The notes under the pieces were generated by a model that was given only the letters and a program-made list of their open reading frames with translations, was not told where the DNA came from and did not search any database. A program made the translations under genes and the position numbers. Source: a virus. From it: a stretch of DNA of 30,569 nucleotides. The DNA lies in the IMG/VR virus record IMGVR_UViG_3300002132_000146, positions 1 to 30,569 of that record; one strand, written 5' to 3'. Of this stretch, positions 2,601 to 29,840 are shown one piece after another. Every line of letters starts with the position of its first letter. Position 1 is the stretch's first letter.

Positions 2601-4787
2601 CTATTTATAATTTTTAAACCCAGACCTAGTTGGTCTATCACTATTTCTTGATCTATTTTGTCCAATATTTTTAAACGGACTATACTTTAATTTACTGAAA
2701 TTATCTGACTTTACCAAAGAATTTTCTTCAGATTCTTGCCTTTTAGAATAACCTCTATTGGATTGTTGTATTTTAACAAAAGCTATTAGTGCCCCAAATG
2801 CCACCAGTCTATCTACGTTAAGACCTGGGTAATATGCTAGCATTTCTTTAATAAGCATTGGATCAGGTATTCTTTCTACTCCTAATGTTTGATTTATTAC
2901 AACACCGTTTATATCTGTTTCTTCATTTATTACTTCTCTTAGAAATTCAATAGCATAAGAAATTAAATGACTTTTAAATAGTATACCGGTATTCTTCCAT
3001 CCATATTCTTGATATACTGTTCTATTAGCACCAAGATCTTTAAGAAATAAAATTTGTTGTTTAGGTACTAAATATCTTTGTTTTTTTCTAGCAATCATAT
3101 GCTGGATAAAAAGAGATATGTTATTCTCTACAATAGTCCAAGCATTATACCATTCAATAATTAGTTCAAGTCTTTCGTGTGTTTTATTAATATCATCAAA
3201 CCTTCCACACCAAGCAGCAACAATTTTATCTTTTTCTAAAAACTGTTCAATATCTCCAGATACAGTAGTTCTAGTTACTTCAGTAGCATTCTTATAAACA
3301 AATATGCTACATAAAGAATCTGATGTAGTTGTCTTTCCTTCTGACACAGGATCAATAGATGCATAATATGCCCCAAACCCTGGACTTTTTACAGGTCTTT
3401 CCCAAACAACAATAGTACCTGTTTTATCTGTTTGTTTTTTATCTACAGGAAATCTAGTGATTGGTAATTTATTTGTTCTCTTAGCAAAGATTCCTTTTTC
3501 ATCTCTATCTAATTCAATGAGTTCATAAGGATATTCTTTTTCCTCAATTCTTTTTTGTTGTCTGCTAAGTATCCCTTGAGGAAACACGGATGCTTTTCTA
3601 TATGCAAATGCTTCAGCAATATTAAGTGGTTTTTGGGATATTCTTAATTGGAATTGTTCACTGTTTAATTCATTTTTCCATCTATCTCTTTCTATAATGA
3701 TTGCACTAACAGCATCTTCAACTAAAGAATTGCCGTAATCATCAATATAAGGGGGCATAGACCACTGTTCAGGAATAAATAACCCTGCCATACCAATAGT
3801 ACCATCAGCATCTATTAAATCAGTTTCTACAGCATATATGTCATTTGCCACAGGATTTGTAATCATATCTTTTAAAGGATTACATTGTTCTAAATCTCCC
3901 ACTGATCCTGCTGCTATAAACATACCTGTAGTCATCATACCAGAAGACATAGCAGGACGTAAATATTCATATGTTTCAGACATCTTAGGAGCAATGCCTG
4001 CTTCCTCATGAAAGAAATATGTACAAGGTCCACCTACTCCAGTTGTGGCATTTTTTTCAAATGAACCACCTTGTATTTTAGATTTAAGTCCTCTAGCAGT
4101 TTTTCTATTGCCTATTCTTACTTCAATTTGTTGTTGCCATAAAAGGACCTTTTCTGGATTGCTTGGTCTATACCATGCAGTGTGTTCATTAAGAAAAATT
4201 TTATATTCATCTAAAAACTTCCAAGATCCTTTATCATTAATAAAATCTTTTAATGATGCACCAATTTTACAAATACTACCTTCTTCAAACCAATAGGTAT
4301 TTATAAGTTTACCCATATGAAAATATGAAGATGCAATCTGACGTTTTTTAAGTATTGCAGAATGTTTATTATTTAACTCAGCTAATAATTCATAAAGAGC
4401 CATATGATATTGGGCATCTCTTACTTTAGCAAAGCCATACTTTTTTTCTTCTTTATCAAAGATTGGTAAAAAGTTTAACCACATATAATAATCTCTACTT
4501 AAATACCAAGACTTATTATCATCTTTATATATAACACCTTCTCTACATTTATTTTTTTGATCTTCCCAATATGTAGTAAAGTCTTTAGATCTAAAAGGTT
4601 TATTACAGTAAAACCCTTGAGTATTAAAAGTTTGAGCTTCTTTATTAAATTCTTGAGCTAAACTATTAAATCCATATTTGCCAGGTTCACTAAATATACT
4701 TAGTATATAATCAACAAATTGTTTTTTAGTTTCAAAATCCGTGGTTATCCACTCACCATTATAATATGTTGGAACGGATTTATACAT
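2601..4787 (-). CDS. terL: Terminase large subunit (TerL)
   Basis: ATP-driven DNA packaging motor and headful nuclease, acting at the portal. The 728-residue protein shows both halves of a TerL. The ATPase has a non-classical Walker A (LKKRQIASSYF, about 146-156), a Walker B with catalytic Glu (YFFHEEAG, about 257-264) and a coupling motif GSVGD near 294. The RNase H-like nuclease has an acidic triad plausibly at D479 (ASIDP), E554 (IVENN) and D659 (NVDRL). The Walker A of the KxRQxxxS type is common in phages with large terminases. Its start overlaps the end of the GroES-like gene by 8 bases, so translation is likely coupled. No small terminase is recognisable nearby. Confidence 0.93.
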   Translation of the reverse strand: MYKSVPTYYNGEWITTDFETKKQFVDYILSIFSEPGKYGFNSLAQEFNKEAQTFNTQGFYCNKPFRSKDFTTYWEDQKNKCREGVIYKDDNKSWYLSRDYYMWLNFLPIFDKEEKKYGFAKVRDAQYHMALYELLAELNNKHSAILKKRQIASSYFHMGKLINTYWFEEGSICKIGASLKDFINDKGSWKFLDEYKIFLNEHTAWYRPSNPEKVLLWQQQIEVRIGNRKTARGLKSKIQGGSFEKNATTGVGGPCTYFFHEEAGIAPKMSETYEYLRPAMSSGMMTTGMFIAAGSVGDLEQCNPLKDMITNPVANDIYAVETDLIDADGTIGMAGLFIPEQWSMPPYIDDYGNSLVEDAVSAIIIERDRWKNELNSEQFQLRISQKPLNIAEAFAYRKASVFPQGILSRQQKRIEEKEYPYELIELDRDEKGIFAKRTNKLPITRFPVDKKQTDKTGTIVVWERPVKSPGFGAYYASIDPVSEGKTTTSDSLCSIFVYKNATEVTRTTVSGDIEQFLEKDKIVAAWCGRFDDINKTHERLELIIEWYNAWTIVENNISLFIQHMIARKKQRYLVPKQQILFLKDLGANRTVYQEYGWKNTGILFKSHLISYAIEFLREVINEETDINGVVINQTLGVERIPDPMLIKEMLAYYPGLNVDRLVAFGALIAFVKIQQSNRGYSKRQESEENSLVKSDNFSKLKYSPFKNIGQNRSRNSDRPTRSGFKNYK

Positions 4788-5058
4788 TCACTAAAATTGC
4801 AAAAACATCACCTTCTTGAATAAGTAAATGTTCTTGATCATTATGTTTCATGGGAACAGGTAAACAATGGTCTGAATATTGAACCACATCTCCTACTTTT
4901 ATTTCTAATACACTTGCTCCTATTCCTACCACTGTTCCTACATTCTCTCTTTCTTGAGATCCATCAGGAATAATAATATTAGTGTTTTTGAAAAACTTTT
5001 CAGCTGCCTTTTGTTTTATCAGAATCTTCTTCCCTACTGGTATAATTTGTTGTGCCAT
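4780..5058 (-). CDS. GroES-like co-chaperonin
   Basis: A 92-residue protein of GroES length and pattern: an N-terminal VGKKILIKQ strand, a mobile-loop-like segment (about 24-37), then GTVVGIG near 42-48, IKVGDVVQYSDH near 53-64 and a terminal EGDVFAIL strand. GroES caps GroEL; phage versions such as T4 gp31 replace the host co-chaperonin so that large capsid proteins can fold. I infer the same role here, supported by its place in the packaging/virion module directly upstream of the terminase. No phage GroEL is in the window. The ATG at 5058 lies inside a possible 55-codon gene ending at 5000. Confidence 0.8.
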   Translation of the reverse strand: MAQQIIPVGKKILIKQKAAEKFFKNTNIIIPDGSQERENVGTVVGIGASVLEIKVGDVVQYSDHCLPVPMKHNDQEHLLIQEGDVFAILVNV

Positions 5059-5167
5059 CTTCTTTGGTTTGTTTATTTGTTATTAATGCTGTATTATCGG
5101 TTTGGTTTTTTGTTGTACAGGGCTCATCCCAATAACAAAAATGCCATATAATTTCTTTATCCTTCAT
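5000..5167 (-). CDS. Possible small hypothetical protein (55 aa)
   Basis: A short reading frame starting at an ATG (5167) that overlaps the stop of the upstream 172-residue gene as TAATG, a typical coupling signal. It begins MKDKEIIWHFCYWDEPC and ends inside the GroES-like gene, overlapping it by 59 bases in another frame. Trp, Cys and aromatic residues crowd the first 17 positions, while the rest is polar and Thr/Lys-rich. It fills what would otherwise be a 108-base gap in a very compact operon. No function recognised. The large overlap is the main argument against it. Confidence 0.4.
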   Translation of the reverse strand: MKDKEIIWHFCYWDEPCTTKNQTDNTALITNKQTKEDGTTNYTSREEDSDKTKGS

Positions 5168-5685
5168 TATATTTGGTCATAAGCTAATCCTGCACCACCT
5201 CTAACCGAACTTTCTTGTTCTTGTTTCATATCAGTAAAAGCCCCTTTATATGAATGTCTTATTTGTTCAAACTTAGCTGCTGCATTTACCATAGAATTTA
5301 TGTTACCATCTCTTCCATGTTCTATTGCAGTAACTTCCATATACTTGGCCAATCTATCAAGCATAGATTTAATACCAACATAAGCTCTATATGTAGGGGT
5401 TTCATAAAGTTTTTTACACATATCTAATGCATATCTTATTTTCCCATCTTCTGGTGATTCTTCTAATTTAATTTCTTCAATTATAATATCTTCTTTTTCA
5501 TGCTCAGGTAAATTAAAAAAAGGATTCATATCTGGATTTGGACAAGACATATAAAAAATGTATTGATATACTTGCAAATAGCTATTAGGATATTCTTCCA
5601 TAATAACATTTAAAAAAGGTAAAGCATAACAATGTTCAGTTGGAACAACTTTGGAGTTTTGTATATCAAATAATCTAATTAACAT
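5167..5685 (-). CDS. Conserved-looking phage protein of unknown function (172 aa)
   Basis: Not recognised. It is a soluble, mostly helical protein with an acidic centre (EHEKEDIIIEEIKLEESPED, about 62-81) and a C-terminal half rich in Ala, Met and Arg, ending in a glycine-rich tail (RGGAG). It is encoded between an 84-residue protein and the GroES-like gene in the packaging module, so a role in head or tail assembly is plausible but is inference from position only. The start at 5685 lies 10 bases from the previous stop. No signal peptide or membrane segment. Confidence 0.8.
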   Translation of the reverse strand: MLIRLFDIQNSKVVPTEHCYALPFLNVIMEEYPNSYLQVYQYIFYMSCPNPDMNPFFNLPEHEKEDIIIEEIKLEESPEDGKIRYALDMCKKLYETPTYRAYVGIKSMLDRLAKYMEVTAIEHGRDGNINSMVNAAAKFEQIRHSYKGAFTDMKQEQESSVRGGAGLAYDQI

Positions 5686-5695
5686 ATATTATATT

Positions 5696-5950
5696 TTATG
5701 GGTTAGTATTCATATATCCCTGTATAATAGAATAACTATCAGTGACTATTAATTCAAGTCCACTGCTTAATAAAACTCTTACTACACCAGGTAAAAAGTT
5801 CTTATTTATAGTAGAGTAATAAGCAGATACACCTACAATTTGTGACTGAGTAATATAAAATGGAGTAGCAGTATTACTATTCCAATACTGTTCTCCACCC
5901 GGATTATCGGTTAGTATTGTAACCGTAGTTAATGTAACATTTGTTGCCAT
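5696..5950 (-). CDS. Small beta-rich hypothetical protein (84 aa)
   Basis: Not recognised. Its sequence alternates Thr/Val/Ile/Ser residues, suggesting a small beta-sheet protein: MATNVTLTTVTILTDN at the start, then GVVRVLLSSGLELIVTD. There are no Cys residues and no membrane segment. It lies 2 bases from the PD-(D/E)XK nuclease stop and 10 bases from the next gene, so it belongs to the late operon. Small beta proteins in such positions are often virion decoration or connector parts, but nothing in the sequence proves this. Confidence 0.75.
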   Translation of the reverse strand: MATNVTLTTVTILTDNPGGEQYWNSNTATPFYITQSQIVGVSAYYSTINKNFLPGVVRVLLSSGLELIVTDSYSIIQGYMNTNP

Positions 5951-5952
5951 AA

Positions 5953-6765
5953 TTATCTATTATCTTTTAACCATATCATTAATGAATCAACTTCATTTTT
6001 TAAATATGGTAATTCATACATTTTTACTTCATCCAAAATAGGTTCTCCATTTTCCACTTTGGTTATTGGATATCCGTTATCATCCTCACCCACTTTAATA
6101 AACTTAACATGTTGTATTACCAACTTGCCTATTTTTAATTTTGGGTTGTGCTTTTTAATAATATACGCATAAATGCTTAGTTGTAAGTTATAATGATTTA
6201 AATTACAATCGTCCAAGTTGTTTACAGGTTTAAACATTTTATTTGTTATTCCCTCCCAACTAGTAAATCCTTTTTCTTTAATTTCTTTATTGGTTTTATA
6301 ATCATAAATATTAATGTAACCATTCACAATTTCTACTAAGTCAGCTTGTCCACAAATTCCTGCAGATTTCAAATATACTAAATGTTCAGGATATATACCG
6401 TCATCTAATTTTTGTTCAGGAGCTAATTTAATACCATCATCGTTTGTTAAAGGTTTTACAATAGGTATCTCTGTTCCATCACGCTCAATAGTATTAAAGT
6501 CTAACATATCAGTCTCTCTCTGATTATGATAAAAGTTACCCAACTTTATAGCTCGTTTTGTTTCATTATCCCATGCATCTAGTATCTCTCTTTCAGACAT
6601 CCCATACCACTTTGATCTTTTGTTTTTAGCTGATTTTTTAGCTTGACCTTTTGCATCAAATTTGGGTTTAAACATTCCTATAAAAGAGGTTACACTTAAC
6701 CACTCTATATTGTCATTGTCTACACTTTCATATGTATGTCCCTCTTCTTTAAATATAATAGCCAT
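5953..6765 (-). CDS. PD-(D/E)XK (Cas4/RecB-like) nuclease
   Basis: A 270-residue metal-dependent nuclease of the PD-(D/E)XK fold. Visible motifs are GNFYH near 76-80, GQADLVEI with the metal-binding Asp at 142, the core pair IYDYKTNK with D155 and K157, and motif QLSIYAY (195-201), which is the QxxxY helix of RecB/Cas4-type enzymes. No Cys cluster for an iron-sulphur centre is seen, so it is not a full Cas4. Likely roles are DNA end processing during packaging or recombination. The frame is open upstream to 6915, but that extension overlaps the previous gene by 146 bases and looks like out-of-frame translation, so I start at the ATG at 6765, 4 bases after the preceding stop. Confidence 0.87.
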   Translation of the reverse strand: MAIIFKEEGHTYESVDNDNIEWLSVTSFIGMFKPKFDAKGQAKKSAKNKRSKWYGMSEREILDAWDNETKRAIKLGNFYHNQRETDMLDFNTIERDGTEIPIVKPLTNDDGIKLAPEQKLDDGIYPEHLVYLKSAGICGQADLVEIVNGYINIYDYKTNKEIKEKGFTSWEGITNKMFKPVNNLDDCNLNHYNLQLSIYAYIIKKHNPKLKIGKLVIQHVKFIKVGEDDNGYPITKVENGEPILDEVKMYELPYLKNEVDSLMIWLKDNR

Positions 6766-11343: not shown

Positions 11344-11691
11344 ATGAATGTATTCTTCAGAAAAGTACAGATTAATCAGAACACAGGCTCAGCCGTGATT
11401 CAATGTACGTCAAATCCTATCACCAACAAGGTGACCACACTTGCTGGTGAGCAAGTAGCTACAAGTTCTATGCAGAACATTGTATTTGGAAATTTATCTC
11501 TTAAAGACCCTGAAACTAATCAGGTGATGAGAGCTAATCATCCAACTATCCAGAGACTAATGATAGCATTAGAACCTGGACAAGAAATGCCTGGCTATAG
11601 ATTCTCAAAGAATCCATGCATAGACATGAAGACTGGTGAGGAAACTAATATGTTCTGGGTGGAAGCCTATGACGTAGATAGCCCTGAGTAA
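11344..11691 (+). CDS. Hypothetical early protein (115 aa)
   Basis: Not recognised. A soluble, beta-rich protein starting MNVFFRKVQINQNTGSAVIQ, with a central VFGNLSLKDPETNQVMRANH and an end of WVEAYDVDSPE. It is the first plus-strand gene after the divergent region and is followed 11 bases later by a strong terminator, so it forms a one-gene unit that is probably expressed early and highly. Codon use (more C- and G-ending codons than neighbours) is compatible with high expression. Function unknown. Confidence 0.8.
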   Translation: MNVFFRKVQINQNTGSAVIQCTSNPITNKVTTLAGEQVATSSMQNIVFGNLSLKDPETNQVMRANHPTIQRLMIALEPGQEMPGYRFSKNPCIDMKTGEETNMFWVEAYDVDSPE

Positions 11692-11702
11692 CATCAGAAC
11701 AA

Positions 11703-11728
11703 GGGAGTGTGTAATAGCACTCCCTTTA
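11703..11728 (+). terminator. Intrinsic terminator 1 (UGUAAUAG loop)
   Basis: Perfect 7-bp stem GGGAGTG (11703-11709) with CACTCCC (11718-11724), loop TGTAATAG, followed by TTTATT. It ends the 115-residue gene. Its loop matches those of two further terminators downstream. Confidence 0.85.
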
Positions 11729-11733
11729 TTATA

Positions 11734-11993
11734 TACTCTCATCCAATTGCAGGTGGTAAACATAGATGATTTACTTCTAACTATAGCTGTCACTGAAAAG
11801 TGTAGATGTTTGCAAAACAGCATGATTTAAACAAAACAAGGGTTGCAACCTTGTGAGAGTACGACAACTATGGGGGAATGTTTTATTAATAACATTACTG
11901 GTGAAGCCATAGGGTCTATATATTTCAATTATGTAGGTGTTGGTACCAGAATCCAACTAATTATAGGTGTGTGTAACAGCACACCTTTTTTTT
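11734..11993 (+). ncRNA. Candidate structured RNA 1
   Basis: No gene fits here, but the plus-strand transcript can form nested helices. A closing stem pairs 11734-11741 (TACTCTCA) with 11854-11861 (TGAGAGTA). Inside are GTAAA/TTTAC (11756-11760/11770-11774), GCTGT/ACAGC (11786-11790/11817-11821) enclosing a GAAA-capped CACT/AGTG hairpin (11791-11802), and the palindrome GGTTGCAACC (11841-11850). A second domain has CTATGG/CCATAG (11868-11873/11907-11912) enclosing AATGTT/AACATT (11877-11882/11891-11896). The element ends in a strong terminator at 11965-11993. I infer a structured untranslated RNA. Covariation is untested. A leader for the 76-residue gene is the alternative. Confidence 0.5.
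11965..11993 (+). terminator. Intrinsic terminator 2 (UGUAACAG loop)
   Basis: Perfect 7-bp stem AGGTGTG (11965-11971) with CACACCT (11980-11986), loop TGTAACAG, then a run of eight T including the stem end. Preceded by CAACTAATTATAGG (11954-11967), a 14-base string that is repeated before terminator 3. Confidence 0.88.
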
Positions 11994-12054
11994 AAATATT
12001 AACCAGAACTCTGTAATTTTAGTTATGGTTGTTAGAAAATAAATAAAGAAAGAA

Positions 12055-12285
12055 ATGGTAAAAATAATAAACCTATTAAAAAAAGAACCTATTCAACTAA
12101 TTCATTTAGTTGATACTGATTCAGAAACACTAACTGGAAAGTTTCTTGGTATAAGACATTGGGATACTGCAGAATTAGTAGCAACAGATGTTAATGGCTT
12201 TGATGTCATAACTTTAACCAGAGATGGTAAAAAGTTTTTAGCATTAGGCTATTGGAATGAGGGAGTTGTAGAAACTCCTTTTTAA
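12055..12285 (+). CDS. Small hypothetical protein (76 aa)
   Basis: Not recognised. A small, probably beta-barrel-like protein: VKIINLLKKEPIQLIHLVDT at the start, then TGKFLGIRHWDTAELVATDV and a terminal YWNEGVVETPF. Its start follows an A/G-rich leader (AAATAAAGAAAGAA), typical of this phage. It lies alone between two candidate structured RNAs: its upstream neighbour is terminator 2, and downstream lies the 11-bp closing stem of RNA 2a. A link between protein and RNAs, such as an RNA-binding role, is possible but speculative. Confidence 0.7.
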   Translation: MVKIINLLKKEPIQLIHLVDTDSETLTGKFLGIRHWDTAELVATDVNGFDVITLTRDGKKFLALGYWNEGVVETPF

Positions 12286-12295
12286 TAAACAAACT

Positions 12296-12478
12296 AATAG
12301 TACTGTAACCTAACAATAAAGATATCCAAAAAAGATTAGGACAATTCTAATAAATTGTCACTAATACTTAGAATATTACCTCAACTATAGATAAGGGGTA
12401 ATAAGCTCATATCAACGTTAATCAACTTCTTTGGTCATTCCAGAAATGTTGTTAGGATAAAACAACAGTACTATTTTT
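12296..12478 (+). ncRNA. Candidate structured RNA 2a with 11-bp closing stem
   Basis: A stretch of 183 bases without a gene. A perfect 11-bp helix pairs 12296-12306 (AATAGTACTGT) with 12465-12475 (ACAGTACTATT), and a T run follows at once (12474-12478), as at the end of a terminated RNA. Stacked inside is a second perfect helix, CCTAAC/GTTAGG (12309-12314/12451-12456). Further hairpins are GACAATT/AATTGTC (12340-12346/12353-12359), TAATA/TATTA (12362-12366/12374-12378), CCTC/GGGG (12379-12382/12395-12398, one G-U) and CATT/AATG (12436-12439/12445-12448). Such nested pairing suggests a compact folded RNA. It does not match any riboswitch or RNA family I can recall. Not tested by covariation. 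Confidence 0.55.
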
Positions 12479-12802
12479 ACTAATGCACCACAACTTATTT
12501 CCCAAGGATAAGCAGTTGTAATAGGGGTGATAAGTAGATATGTATATTGTATTGGAAAGCTTAAAGTTAAACTGGTCGGACAGTAAACTTTAGAAAATTA
12601 TGCTACCTGCAAATATGAAATCTTCTACACACTTAAGCTATTACAACTGAGTGCAGAGGGATTGTGTAATACCTGAATAGGTAACAAATAAAAGGAAAGT
12701 AGGAAAACAAAAGGCAATACCATATTAGAGTATGTAAGAACCTTTTTGAAGTATCTTTCTTATTACAACTAATTATAGGGGGTGTGTAAAAGCACCCTTT
12801 TT
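12479..12802 (+). ncRNA. Candidate structured RNA 2b (hairpin-rich, ends in terminator 3)
   Basis: No gene is visible. The strand can form a long irregular hairpin at 12486-12529 (CACC/GGTG, ACAA/TTGT, CTTAT/ATAAG), a strong hairpin at 12562-12592 (TAAAGTT/AACTTTA and ACTG/CAGT, loop GTCGGA) and a short ACCT-GAAT-AGGT hairpin near 12673. It ends in terminator 3. It may be part of the same large RNA as 2a (about 500 bases together), a separate RNA, or an untranslated trailer. It is weaker than 2a because no single long closing stem was found. Confidence 0.35.
12780..12802 (+). terminator. Intrinsic terminator 3 (UGUAAAAG loop)
   Basis: Stem GGGTG (12780-12784) with CACCC (12793-12797), loop TGTAAAAG, then TTTTT. 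Preceded by CAACTAATTATAGG at 12766-12779, identical to the string before terminator 2, so the two 3' ends look like copies of one element. Confidence 0.82.
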
Positions 12803-17767: not shown

Positions 17768-17841
17768 GGTTCCATAGCTCAACTGGATAGAGCAACACCC
17801 TTCTAAGGTGTAGGTTGAAGGTTCAAATCCTTCTGGGATCA
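17768..17841 (+). tRNA. tRNA-Arg (anticodon UCU)
   Basis: Cloverleaf with acceptor GGTTCCA/TGGGATC (two G-U pairs), D-arm TAGCTCAACTGGATAGAGC, anticodon stem ACACC/GGTGT with loop CTTCTAA and T-loop GGTTCAAATCC. The anticodon reads AGA, a frequent Arg codon here. The CCA end is not encoded. Confidence 0.93.
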
Positions 17842-17845
17842 CTTT

Positions 17846-17931
17846 GGCCGAATGATGAAATTGGTAGACATGAGGGACTTAAAATCCCTTGAGCAGAGAT
17901 GCTTGTGTGGGTTCAAGTCCCATTTCGGCTA
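17846..17931 (+). tRNA. tRNA-Leu (anticodon UAA)
   Basis: Type II tRNA: acceptor GGCCGAA/TTCGGCT (first pair G-U), D-arm ending in GGTAGACAT, anticodon stem AGGGA/TCCCT with loop CTTAAAA, a long variable arm (GAGCAGAGATGCTTG) and T-loop GGTTCAAGTCC. It reads TTA, by eye the commonest Leu codon in these genes. No encoded CCA. Confidence 0.93.
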
Positions 17932-17956
17932 CTTTTATATCCGTTAAGGTATATGA

Positions 17957-18030
17957 GCTCTCTTAGCTCAGATGGTTAGAGCAAATCACTCATAATGATT
18001 AGGTCATAGGTTCAAATCCTATAGGGAGCA
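17957..18030 (+). tRNA. tRNA with CAU anticodon (Met, or Ile-lysidine type)
   Basis: Acceptor GCTCTCT/AGGGAGC, D-arm TAGCTCAGATGGTTAGAGC, anticodon stem AATCA/TGATT with loop CTCATAA, T-loop GGTTCAAATCC. The CAU anticodon means elongator Met or an AUA-reading Ile tRNA that the host TilS would modify. It lacks the initiator-type unpaired first base, so initiator Met is unlikely. No encoded CCA. Confidence 0.9.
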
Positions 18031-18048
18031 CACAAAAAAAACATTTAA

Positions 18049-28676: not shown

Positions 28677-29840
28677 ATGAACAACATACAAGACTTAGTT
28701 GCAAGAACAACTAAAACATTAATACTAGATGAGCCTTTTTACGGGCTCTTTTTAATTGGTATAAATAAACAATTCAGTAATAAACTACCTACAGCAGGTG
28801 TTAGTAAACATGGAATTGGCATGCAGTTAACAGTTAATCCTGAGTTCTACACAAATTTAAGTGAAGATCATAGAGTTGGACTGATAAAGCATGAACTTTT
28901 GCACATAGCATTTGGGCATTTAGTAATGAGAGATCTCTATCCAGATCATAAGCTATTTAATATAGCAGCAGATTTAGAAATCAATCAATATATATCAGAA
29001 CATAAACTTCCTCAAGGAGGCTTATTGCTTTCAAGCTTTCCAGAATTAAATCTTCCTATTAAAGCAGGAACAAAAGTTTATTATAATCTTTTGGAACAAG
29101 CTCAACAGGATGGTACTTGTCCTTCATTAGATAATTTAATGGATCAAATGGATGGAGAATCACAGTATTGCCATTCTACATGGGAGGAGTTTGATGATTT
29201 ATCTGAAGCTGATAAAAAGTTGGTACAAAAACAAGTTGATCATCAACTTAAAGAAGCTACAGAACAAACAGTCAAAAAACAAGGTACTATACCAGGTGAA
29301 TTAGCAGAACTCATTCATAGGCTTATGCATATTGAACCAGCTAAATTTGATTGGAAAGGTTATTTGAGAAGGTTTGTTGGTAATTCTAGTATAGTATATA
29401 CTAAGAAATTAAGACGTAAGTATAACAAACGTTATGCGGGTAGTCCTGGTCTTAAGATTAAATTCAAAAATCATATTCTTGTTGGTGTTGACACAAGTGG
29501 ATCTGTAAATACAGAAGAGTTAAAAGAATTTTTTAGTGAGTTAGCTCATATGTACAAAACAGGTCATAAAATTACAGTGGCACAATGTGATACACATTTA
29601 GGCAGTGTAAAAGAATTCAACCCAAAAAAGGATTGGGAAATACATGGTAGAGGTGGGACTTCATTCCAACCTGTAATAGACCACTATAATGAAAATAAAG
29701 GGTCATACACGGCACTTATATATTTAACAGATGGAGAAGCTTATCCTCCAGAGAACTGCCCTAAAAATGCTCTGTGGGTACTTAGTAGTATATCTGATAT
29801 AAATAATAAGTTACCAGGACAAGTAATAAAATTAAATTAA
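28677..29840 (+). CDS. VWA-domain metallopeptidase-like protein
   Basis: A 387-residue two-domain protein. The N-terminal half contains the zinc-peptidase signature HELLHIAFGH (72-81), then ADLEIN (98-103), as in DUF2201-type putative metallopeptidases. The C-terminal half is a VWA domain with an intact MIDAS: DTSGS (272-276), GGTSF with T328, and TDGE (351-354). Such proteins pair with MoxR-type AAA+ ATPases, which act as chaperones or remodellers, and a MoxR-like gene begins one gene downstream. In a phage this pair could mature, activate or degrade a target protein. It has no signal peptide, so it is cytoplasmic. Confidence 0.88.
   Translation: MNNIQDLVARTTKTLILDEPFYGLFLIGINKQFSNKLPTAGVSKHGIGMQLTVNPEFYTNLSEDHRVGLIKHELLHIAFGHLVMRDLYPDHKLFNIAADLEINQYISEHKLPQGGLLLSSFPELNLPIKAGTKVYYNLLEQAQQDGTCPSLDNLMDQMDGESQYCHSTWEEFDDLSEADKKLVQKQVDHQLKEATEQTVKKQGTIPGELAELIHRLMHIEPAKFDWKGYLRRFVGNSSIVYTKKLRRKYNKRYAGSPGLKIKFKNHILVGVDTSGSVNTEELKEFFSELAHMYKTGHKITVAQCDTHLGSVKEFNPKKDWEIHGRGGTSFQPVIDHYNENKGSYTALIYLTDGEAYPPENCPKNALWVLSSISDINNKLPGQVIKLN

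Follow-up and report, generated by a model that had tools for sequence, protein, structure and literature searches.

A structured RNA family with a conserved core hairpin in an accessory island of crAss-like phages

The window analyzed here comprises all 30,569 nucleotides of the IMG/VR virus record IMGVR_UViG_3300002132_000146. The phage is crAss-like: the crAss terminase family is the one that its terminase matches, and its best relatives among annotated phages, at about 25% identity, are crAss-like as well. This group is among the most abundant viruses of Bacteroidetes (PMC10136315). On the + strand, genes for proteins of 115 amino acids (11344-11691), 76 amino acids (12055-12285; P0002), and 93 amino acids (from 13225) surround a stretch at 12296-12475, and the 76-amino-acid gene stops 11 nt 5' of it. 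The original prediction had seen no gene in this stretch, and indeed it holds no ORF of at least 60 amino acids and no ATG-started ORF of at least 40. The replication side of the window includes a helicase and a Toprim/primase-like gene, and the same module has a DUF2201 metallopeptidase-like plus VWA-like protein at 28677-29840. Three tRNA genes (Arg-TCT, Leu-TAA, and Met-CAT) lie at 17768-18031, about 5.3 kb downstream of the stretch.

The minimum-energy fold of 12296-12475 reaches −45.8 kcal/mol, compared to −24.4 ± 3.7 kcal/mol for dinucleotide shuffles, none of 200 of which does as well (z = −5.84). It contains the two nested helices that had been read from the letters, an outer one in which 11 of 11 bases are complementary and an inner one that joins CCTAAC(AA) to (TT)GTTAGG, together with the four predicted inner hairpins. 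These hairpins are thus present in the energy fold, but the inner fold is better taken from relatives, which reveal a third closing segment. The parts of the element are as follows.

12296..12475, + strand: structured RNA element, long form, complete from closing helix to closing helix (fold z as above; about 19 further copies keep the pairing)
12296..12306, + strand: P1 closing helix, 5' arm AATAGTACTGT, pairing with 12465-12475
12309..12316, + strand: second closing segment, 5' arm CCTAACAA, pairing with TTGTTAGG (energy fold; counterpart CTTTATACT/AGTATAAAG in L261)
12326..12334, + strand: third closing segment, 5' arm CCAAAAAAG, pairing with CTTCTTTGG with one A.C mismatch in the window
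12340..12359, + strand: P3 side hairpin GACAATT...AATTGTC, of varying sequence among copies (energy fold; the GAGG/CCUC hairpin of the compact form occupies the same place)
12367..12409, + strand: P4 core hairpin, stem 12374-12382/12395-12403 (covariation)
12367-12375 and 12402-12409, + strand: P4 conserved flanks, CTTAGAATA and TAAGCTCA, which can pair irregularly, leaving U.C and A.G mismatches
12383..12394, + strand: apical loop AA-CTATAG-ATAA, whose palindrome CTATAG (12385-12390) is a candidate kissing-loop contact
12416..12421, + strand: conserved single-stranded CGTTAA (from the alignment; CGNUAA in most copies)
12426..12434, + strand: third closing segment, 3' arm CTTCTTTGG, pairing with CCAAAAAAG
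12449..12456, + strand: second closing segment, 3' arm TTGTTAGG (energy fold; L261 counterpart)
12465..12475, + strand: P1 closing helix, 3' arm ACAGTACTATT, pairing with 12296-12306

The window's copy, at 180 nt, represents a long form with three stacked closing segments. The third of these is perfect in the L019 copy (seen through L279), where it reads CCAAAGAAG/CTTCTTTGG, and it is homologous to CTCAAAGAA/TTCTTTGAG in L261. A compact form of 96 to 132 nt is a junction of P1, the P3 hairpin, the P4 core hairpin, and a P6 hairpin; across all copies, the length between closing helices ranges from 96 to 185 nt.

The 115-amino-acid gene brought in 17, later about 80, relatives, and one more, L019, was found through the 76-amino-acid gene; the L019 element is 98% identical to that of the window. 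A diverged copy in L003 was spotted by its hairpin loop, and an IMG/VR scan for the loop, filtered for the flanking stem, yielded L235/L269 and L261/L277. The first covariance model of the core hairpin gave a second L019 copy with a different loop, a weak hit (E 0.07) that its closing helix subsequently bore out, and three pattern scans on the flanking strands (TAGARTA...TAWGCTCA...CGNTAA and variants) extended the family further. In total it numbers about 20 elements, the window's and about 19 further copies, in about 18 non-redundant viral contigs, among which independent lineages are only a handful. A covariance model built from compact-form copies only recovers the diverged L261 and L307 (E 4e-4 and 9e-4), and three diverged copies fold with z values of −4.66, −5.04, and −3.36. 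Pattern hits without a convincing core hairpin and closing helix were dropped (for example, L293, L294, L295, L300, L303, L308, the L313 group, L413-L415, and L417-L419), as was a 14-nt repeat, CAACTAATTATAGG, which proved too unspecific as a probe. None of 28 pattern hits in GTDB bacterial genomes has the conserved hairpin, most being look-alikes in Pelagibacteraceae and Nitrosopumilus, and BLAST of the locus or its copies against annotated phages returned nothing or only unrelated partial matches.

Covariation among at least ten diverged relatives, on which the original prediction had staked its claim of a new structured RNA, is present: across the roughly 20 elements, double compensatory changes occur in the core, the closing helix, and the side hairpins. 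Covariance-model searches, proposed alongside, recovered further copies with our own models, and no Rfam family matched. A closing helix of 8 to 14 bp can enclose every copy, and its sequence differs between lineages while complementarity is kept (AATAGTACTGT/ACAGTACTATT, TAGTATGAATTGAG/TTCAATTCATACTA, AATAACTACTACA/TGTAGTAGTTATT, TTAATATCAAGTAT/ATACTTGATATTAA, AAACCAAGTAT/ATACTTGGTTT, AATAATAGAAGA/TCTTCTATTATT, and ATATTTTCCCCT/AGGGGGAAATAT). For most copies, shuffling the flanks rarely or never gives an equal score; the helices of L291, L297, L298, L324, L337, and L416 are weak, with 20 to 69 of 200 shuffles reaching their score. Those of L296, L297, L324, L337, and L416 were read by hand, the automatic pick being another helix (hand-read pairs include AACCAAGTAT/ATACTTGGTT in L296, ATAATTAG/CTAATTAT in L297, and TAAGATAAA/TTTATCTTA in L416).

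Inside the closing helix, both sides have changed in 5 of the 10 pairs of the P4 core (5 sequences), 102 of 105 cells are paired among 11 hand-aligned representatives, and P4 covariation exceeds that of all 500 shuffles and of every slid register. For the compact form, 92% of alignment cells pair, compared to 85% when shuffled and 25 to 53% with slid partners; double changes affect eight pairs, spread across all four helices (closing, P3, P4, and P6), and the GAGG/CCUC hairpin at the P3 position is paired in 100% of cells (8 copies). At the first position of P4, 11 of 14 copies have a G.U pair, which argues for RNA rather than single-stranded DNA. Short inverted repeats often arise by chance in AT-rich phage DNA, and a chance fold in an AT-rich intergenic stretch would be the simplest dismissal of the element; the fold energy of the window's copy and the recurrence of the fold in diverged phages with compensatory changes refute it. 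The element at 12296-12475 is a real folded RNA with a well-supported fold, and its family recurs in diverged phages.

Amid freely changing stems, three strands are nearly invariant: (C)UUAGARUA on the 5' side of the core hairpin, UAUGCUCA on its 3' side, and CGNUAA beyond. Because the search patterns included them, their conservation is partly selected for, but they also occur in copies found without that bias (L003, L235, and L261, all found by the loop alone, and the second L019 copy, found by the model). Read from the sequence, the two P4 flanks could lengthen P4 by an irregular helix that contains the mismatches listed above, and such conserved irregular flanks would be the expected place for a protein or tertiary contact.

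The apical loop of P4 reads AA-NNNNNN-AUAA or a near variant in most copies, with a self-complementary hexamer. This hexamer is CUAUAG, CUGCAG, or CCUAGG in 12 of 14 aligned copies, the exceptions being L299, with a shifted palindrome (UCUAGA), and L301, with none. Treated as three pairs, the palindrome pairs in 97% of cells, with A-U, G-C, and U-A variants interchanging, and its covariation score is 0.43, compared to 0.19 for shuffles. The chance of arriving at a palindrome by random changes from CUAUAG is 0.07 for two changes and 0.02 for four, and the test rests on two changes away from the commonest loop. Some copies (L307 and the CUGCAG group) would also allow a portion of the palindrome to pair with the 3' stem strand, an alternative that L019, L297, and L416 break. 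Folding back within one molecule is not open to a self-complementary hexamer, so that kissing between molecules would most simply explain why it is maintained. A palindrome kept through changes is what one would expect to see in a kissing-loop homodimer, short of proof, and makes dimerization plausible. L019 holds two copies of the RNA at 4813-5421, with loops CTGCAG and CTATAG and the 76-amino-acid gene between them; the differing loops suggest paralogues that would kiss each other poorly.

The crAss terminase was found in 16 of 20 RNA-bearing contigs searched, the other four records being possibly incomplete, and wherever a terminase was found in such a contig it is crAss-like. In all 12 contigs mapped, the window included, the RNA lies on the strand opposite to the terminase, 3.3 to 18.5 kb beyond the terminase 5' end; it belongs to the replication-side module. 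In six phages it follows a P0001-family gene by 0.4 to 0.75 kb. It is intergenic in practically all copies, a few of which overlap only short ORFs at their edge. The downstream gene differs between copies, at a distance of about 24 to 1,000 nt. The 76-amino-acid gene was considered as a constant partner and rejected, being among the nearest genes only in the window, L019, and L261. Several long relatives, G013, G039, G042, G050, and G051 among them, have no match to the RNA, and none above chance was found in ten reference phages (crAss-like phages and the Flavobacterium phages Fpv1, FpV4, and FPSV-S29); no cultured phage in these searches carried a copy. In L002, whose P0001 is 96% and whose downstream flank is 93% identical to the window's, about 360 nt carrying a protein gene stand in place of the region equivalent to 11733-12780. 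Because of these absences and this replacement, we conclude that the RNA is accessory.

The island around the element holds further modules. A second RNA family, also apparently new, follows it directly at 12481-12660; L019 has several copies (near 5428-5610, 5727-5908, and 6196-6293), and others occur in L175, L296, L324, and L337. Its layout is UAAUGCACC, a hairpin with loop UUCCCAAGG, a long arm CAGUUGUAAU/AUUACAACUG, and then AGUGCAGAGGG. Read from the sequences, its P1 changes from TGCAC/GTGCA to TGTAT/ATACA and a pseudoknot from CCC/GGG to CAC/GTG, and its hairpin arms differ yet stay complementary. Its UAA, UCCCAAG, and GAGGG recall the twister ribozyme, a candidate that we rejected, as 12481-12660 has no Rfam match and no outer helix can be seen by eye at UAA/GAGGG. 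A third module, at 11735-11860, is closed by ACTCTCA/TGTGAGAGT (ACTCTTA/TGTAAGAGT in L003) and includes a CATCCAATTGCAGG stretch, kept in most relatives, and a GGTTGCAACC hairpin; it also occurs in L003 (near 5393-5534), L019 (near 4368-4528), and L016 (near 5768-5870). Two more candidate RNAs were seen in relatives. One, in L016 (near 5347-5405) and L004 (near 5395-5480), has the form GACACAGTTTGCC...GGACATCAGGCT...GATAACCAACGAGTGTC, and in L004 its closing helix has changed to GGCAC/GTGCC; the other, in L007 (near 5717-5793) and L016 (near 6505-6576), reads AGAG(T/C)AATGAGTCAAGCAATACCACT...GGATAAGCACTCT and has inner hairpin arms that differ. Terminator-like hairpins of the form GGGxGTGTGTAAxAGCACxCCC followed by T-rich runs (11703-11725, 11968-11990, and 12778-12800) divide the modules and sit where the relatives L002 and L004 differ, which suggests cassette exchange between similar hairpins. 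With at least one further RNA family beside the focal element, the locus has the look of a site at which several structured RNAs and small genes are exchanged.

The original prediction had also taken a T run directly after the closing helix for the end of the RNA. The five T's occupy 12474-12478, so that two of them are already inside the helix, and the run is ruled out as a conserved terminator, given that an intrinsic-terminator-like hairpin lies within 90 nt in only 1 of 19 copies. We recognized no promoter at the copies. Given that neither a conserved terminator nor a promoter was recognized, release from a longer transcript is probable.

What might such an RNA do? It is intergenic and patchy in distribution, is swapped with small protein genes, and is tied to no downstream gene, and for these reasons we favor a trans-acting accessory role. 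We propose that it is a small noncoding RNA of environmental crAss-like phages, 96 to 185 nt long, encoded within an accessory island that follows closely on the first gene of the divergent replication-side module. The virion RNA polymerase of crAss-like phages transcribes their early and middle genes, and an anti-host role is postulated for the blocks of short, homologue-free genes in their genomes (PMC10136315). The RNA would probably be transcribed early by the phage's own virion RNA polymerase, inside a longer transcript, and then be excised or persist as a stable folded island. Its long closing helix would hold a junction of side hairpins and the one invariant core hairpin, and copies would probably contact each other by the self-complementary hexamer in the loop of that hairpin, forming a dimer that acts in trans. 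The likeliest role would be accessory and host directed, with the conserved UUAGARUA/UAUGCUCA/CGNUAA core binding a protein of the host or the phage, for which the RNA would serve as decoy or scaffold. We give this explanation as a whole, an accessory trans-acting dimeric RNA from an early transcript, probably directed against the host, a probability of about 0.5. A bolder and decidedly tentative extension would see here a novel class of palindromic kissing-loop dimers made early from an RNA-rich accessory island, serving as counter-defense or host-takeover factors, in which unrelated RNA families are exchanged like accessory genes.

The main rival is action in cis on the early transcript: the RNA might shield polycistronic messages, set processing points, or allow terminator read-through by a put-like logic. 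It lies in an early operon, always in the operon's orientation and with no promoter or terminator of its own recognized, and the terminator-like hairpins described above punctuate the same stretch. We nevertheless consider this reading unlikely, if deserving of serious weight, because the position of the RNA relative to neighboring genes and hairpins is variable, with no common downstream gene; close relatives without the RNA keep the flanking genes, and a multi-hairpin core with a conserved loop exceeds the needs of a shield. The differing downstream gene and its variable distance are what lead us to prefer trans over cis.

The other alternatives are further from the evidence. A DNA-level element, such as a single-stranded recombination or replication hairpin of the integron attC kind with the palindrome as a protein or recombination site, would suit an island in which small genes and RNA modules are exchanged like cassettes between similar backbones, but it is improbable given the frequent G.U pair, which single-stranded DNA does not favor, the large sequence-invariant loop and junction strands, and the fixed strand orientation relative to gene modules. 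Somewhat less probable still is a packaging or replication RNA resembling phi29 pRNA, forming a loop-loop ring or dimer on the motor or at an origin. Loop-loop self-pairing is suggested here too, and the early location is beside the divergent switch point; this reading sits poorly with a patchy RNA that has no match in the five long relatives named above and none above chance in the reference phages, has two copies in L019, has its island replaced in a close relative, and has no pRNA match in Rfam. A Y-RNA-like partnership with a phage TROVE/Ro60-type protein was suggested by a TROVE match in the RNA-bearing phage G030, and an early gene of crAss001 encodes a TROVE-domain protein (PMC10136315). 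TROVE was found in only 1 of 13 RNA-bearing records searched, however, and in neither the long G018, G020, and G034 nor the window's record, while crAss001 has TROVE without such an RNA, so that as a general explanation this partnership is largely refuted and very improbable.

These results indicate that part of the crAss-like early region is not protein coding and instead holds structured RNAs with a conserved core. Should the RNA act in trans, the accessory weapons or regulators of crAss-like phages would have to include RNA. The palindromic loop offers a simple handle for testing self-association, and the conserved motif allows the RNA to be located in further genomes and in infection RNA-seq data already available.

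The RNA is new, falling outside any described family. Searches of the window stretch and relatives with Rfam 15 at permissive thresholds gave only chance-level hits besides tRNAs, ARAGORN reported only the three tRNAs at 17768-18031 and none at the element, and open-licence papers searched described no structured RNA of this kind for crAss-like phages. A riboswitch or 5' leader is not indicated, as no common downstream gene exists at the variable distances given above. Like put-type antiterminator RNAs, the element is a structured RNA of an early phage transcript with a specific orientation, but we see no resemblance in fold, and its position relative to promoters and terminators is not conserved. 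It shares with phi29-type pRNA the status of a small phage-encoded RNA with a proposed loop-loop self-contact; pRNA loops are complementary in pairs, not palindromic, and the distribution of our RNA is accessory rather than throughout the phage group. The retroviral DIS offers a further parallel. In HIV it is a palindromic hexamer in an apical loop, flanked by purines, that is palindromic across lineages, and the loop described here likewise sets its hexamer between purines and keeps it palindromic between lineages, although RNA, host, and context are unrelated and the dimer here is a candidate.

In behavior, the nearest analogues are ROOL and GOLLD. The original prediction's comparison with them holds as an analogy between phage RNAs and not as kinship: the ROOL and GOLLD covariance models gave no match at E values up to 5 in the window stretch or relatives, and at 96 to 185 nt our RNA is several times smaller (the two span about 600 to 900 nt, with 659 nt for ROOL env-120 and more than 800 nt for many GOLLD RNAs) and differently built. 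Like them, it is phage encoded, intergenic, without an assigned function, and accompanied by tRNA genes in the same part of the genome. Homo-oligomers of ROOL and of GOLLD are held together in part by kissing loops (PMC12286853), and the covarying loop palindrome suggests that this much smaller RNA may associate with itself as well.
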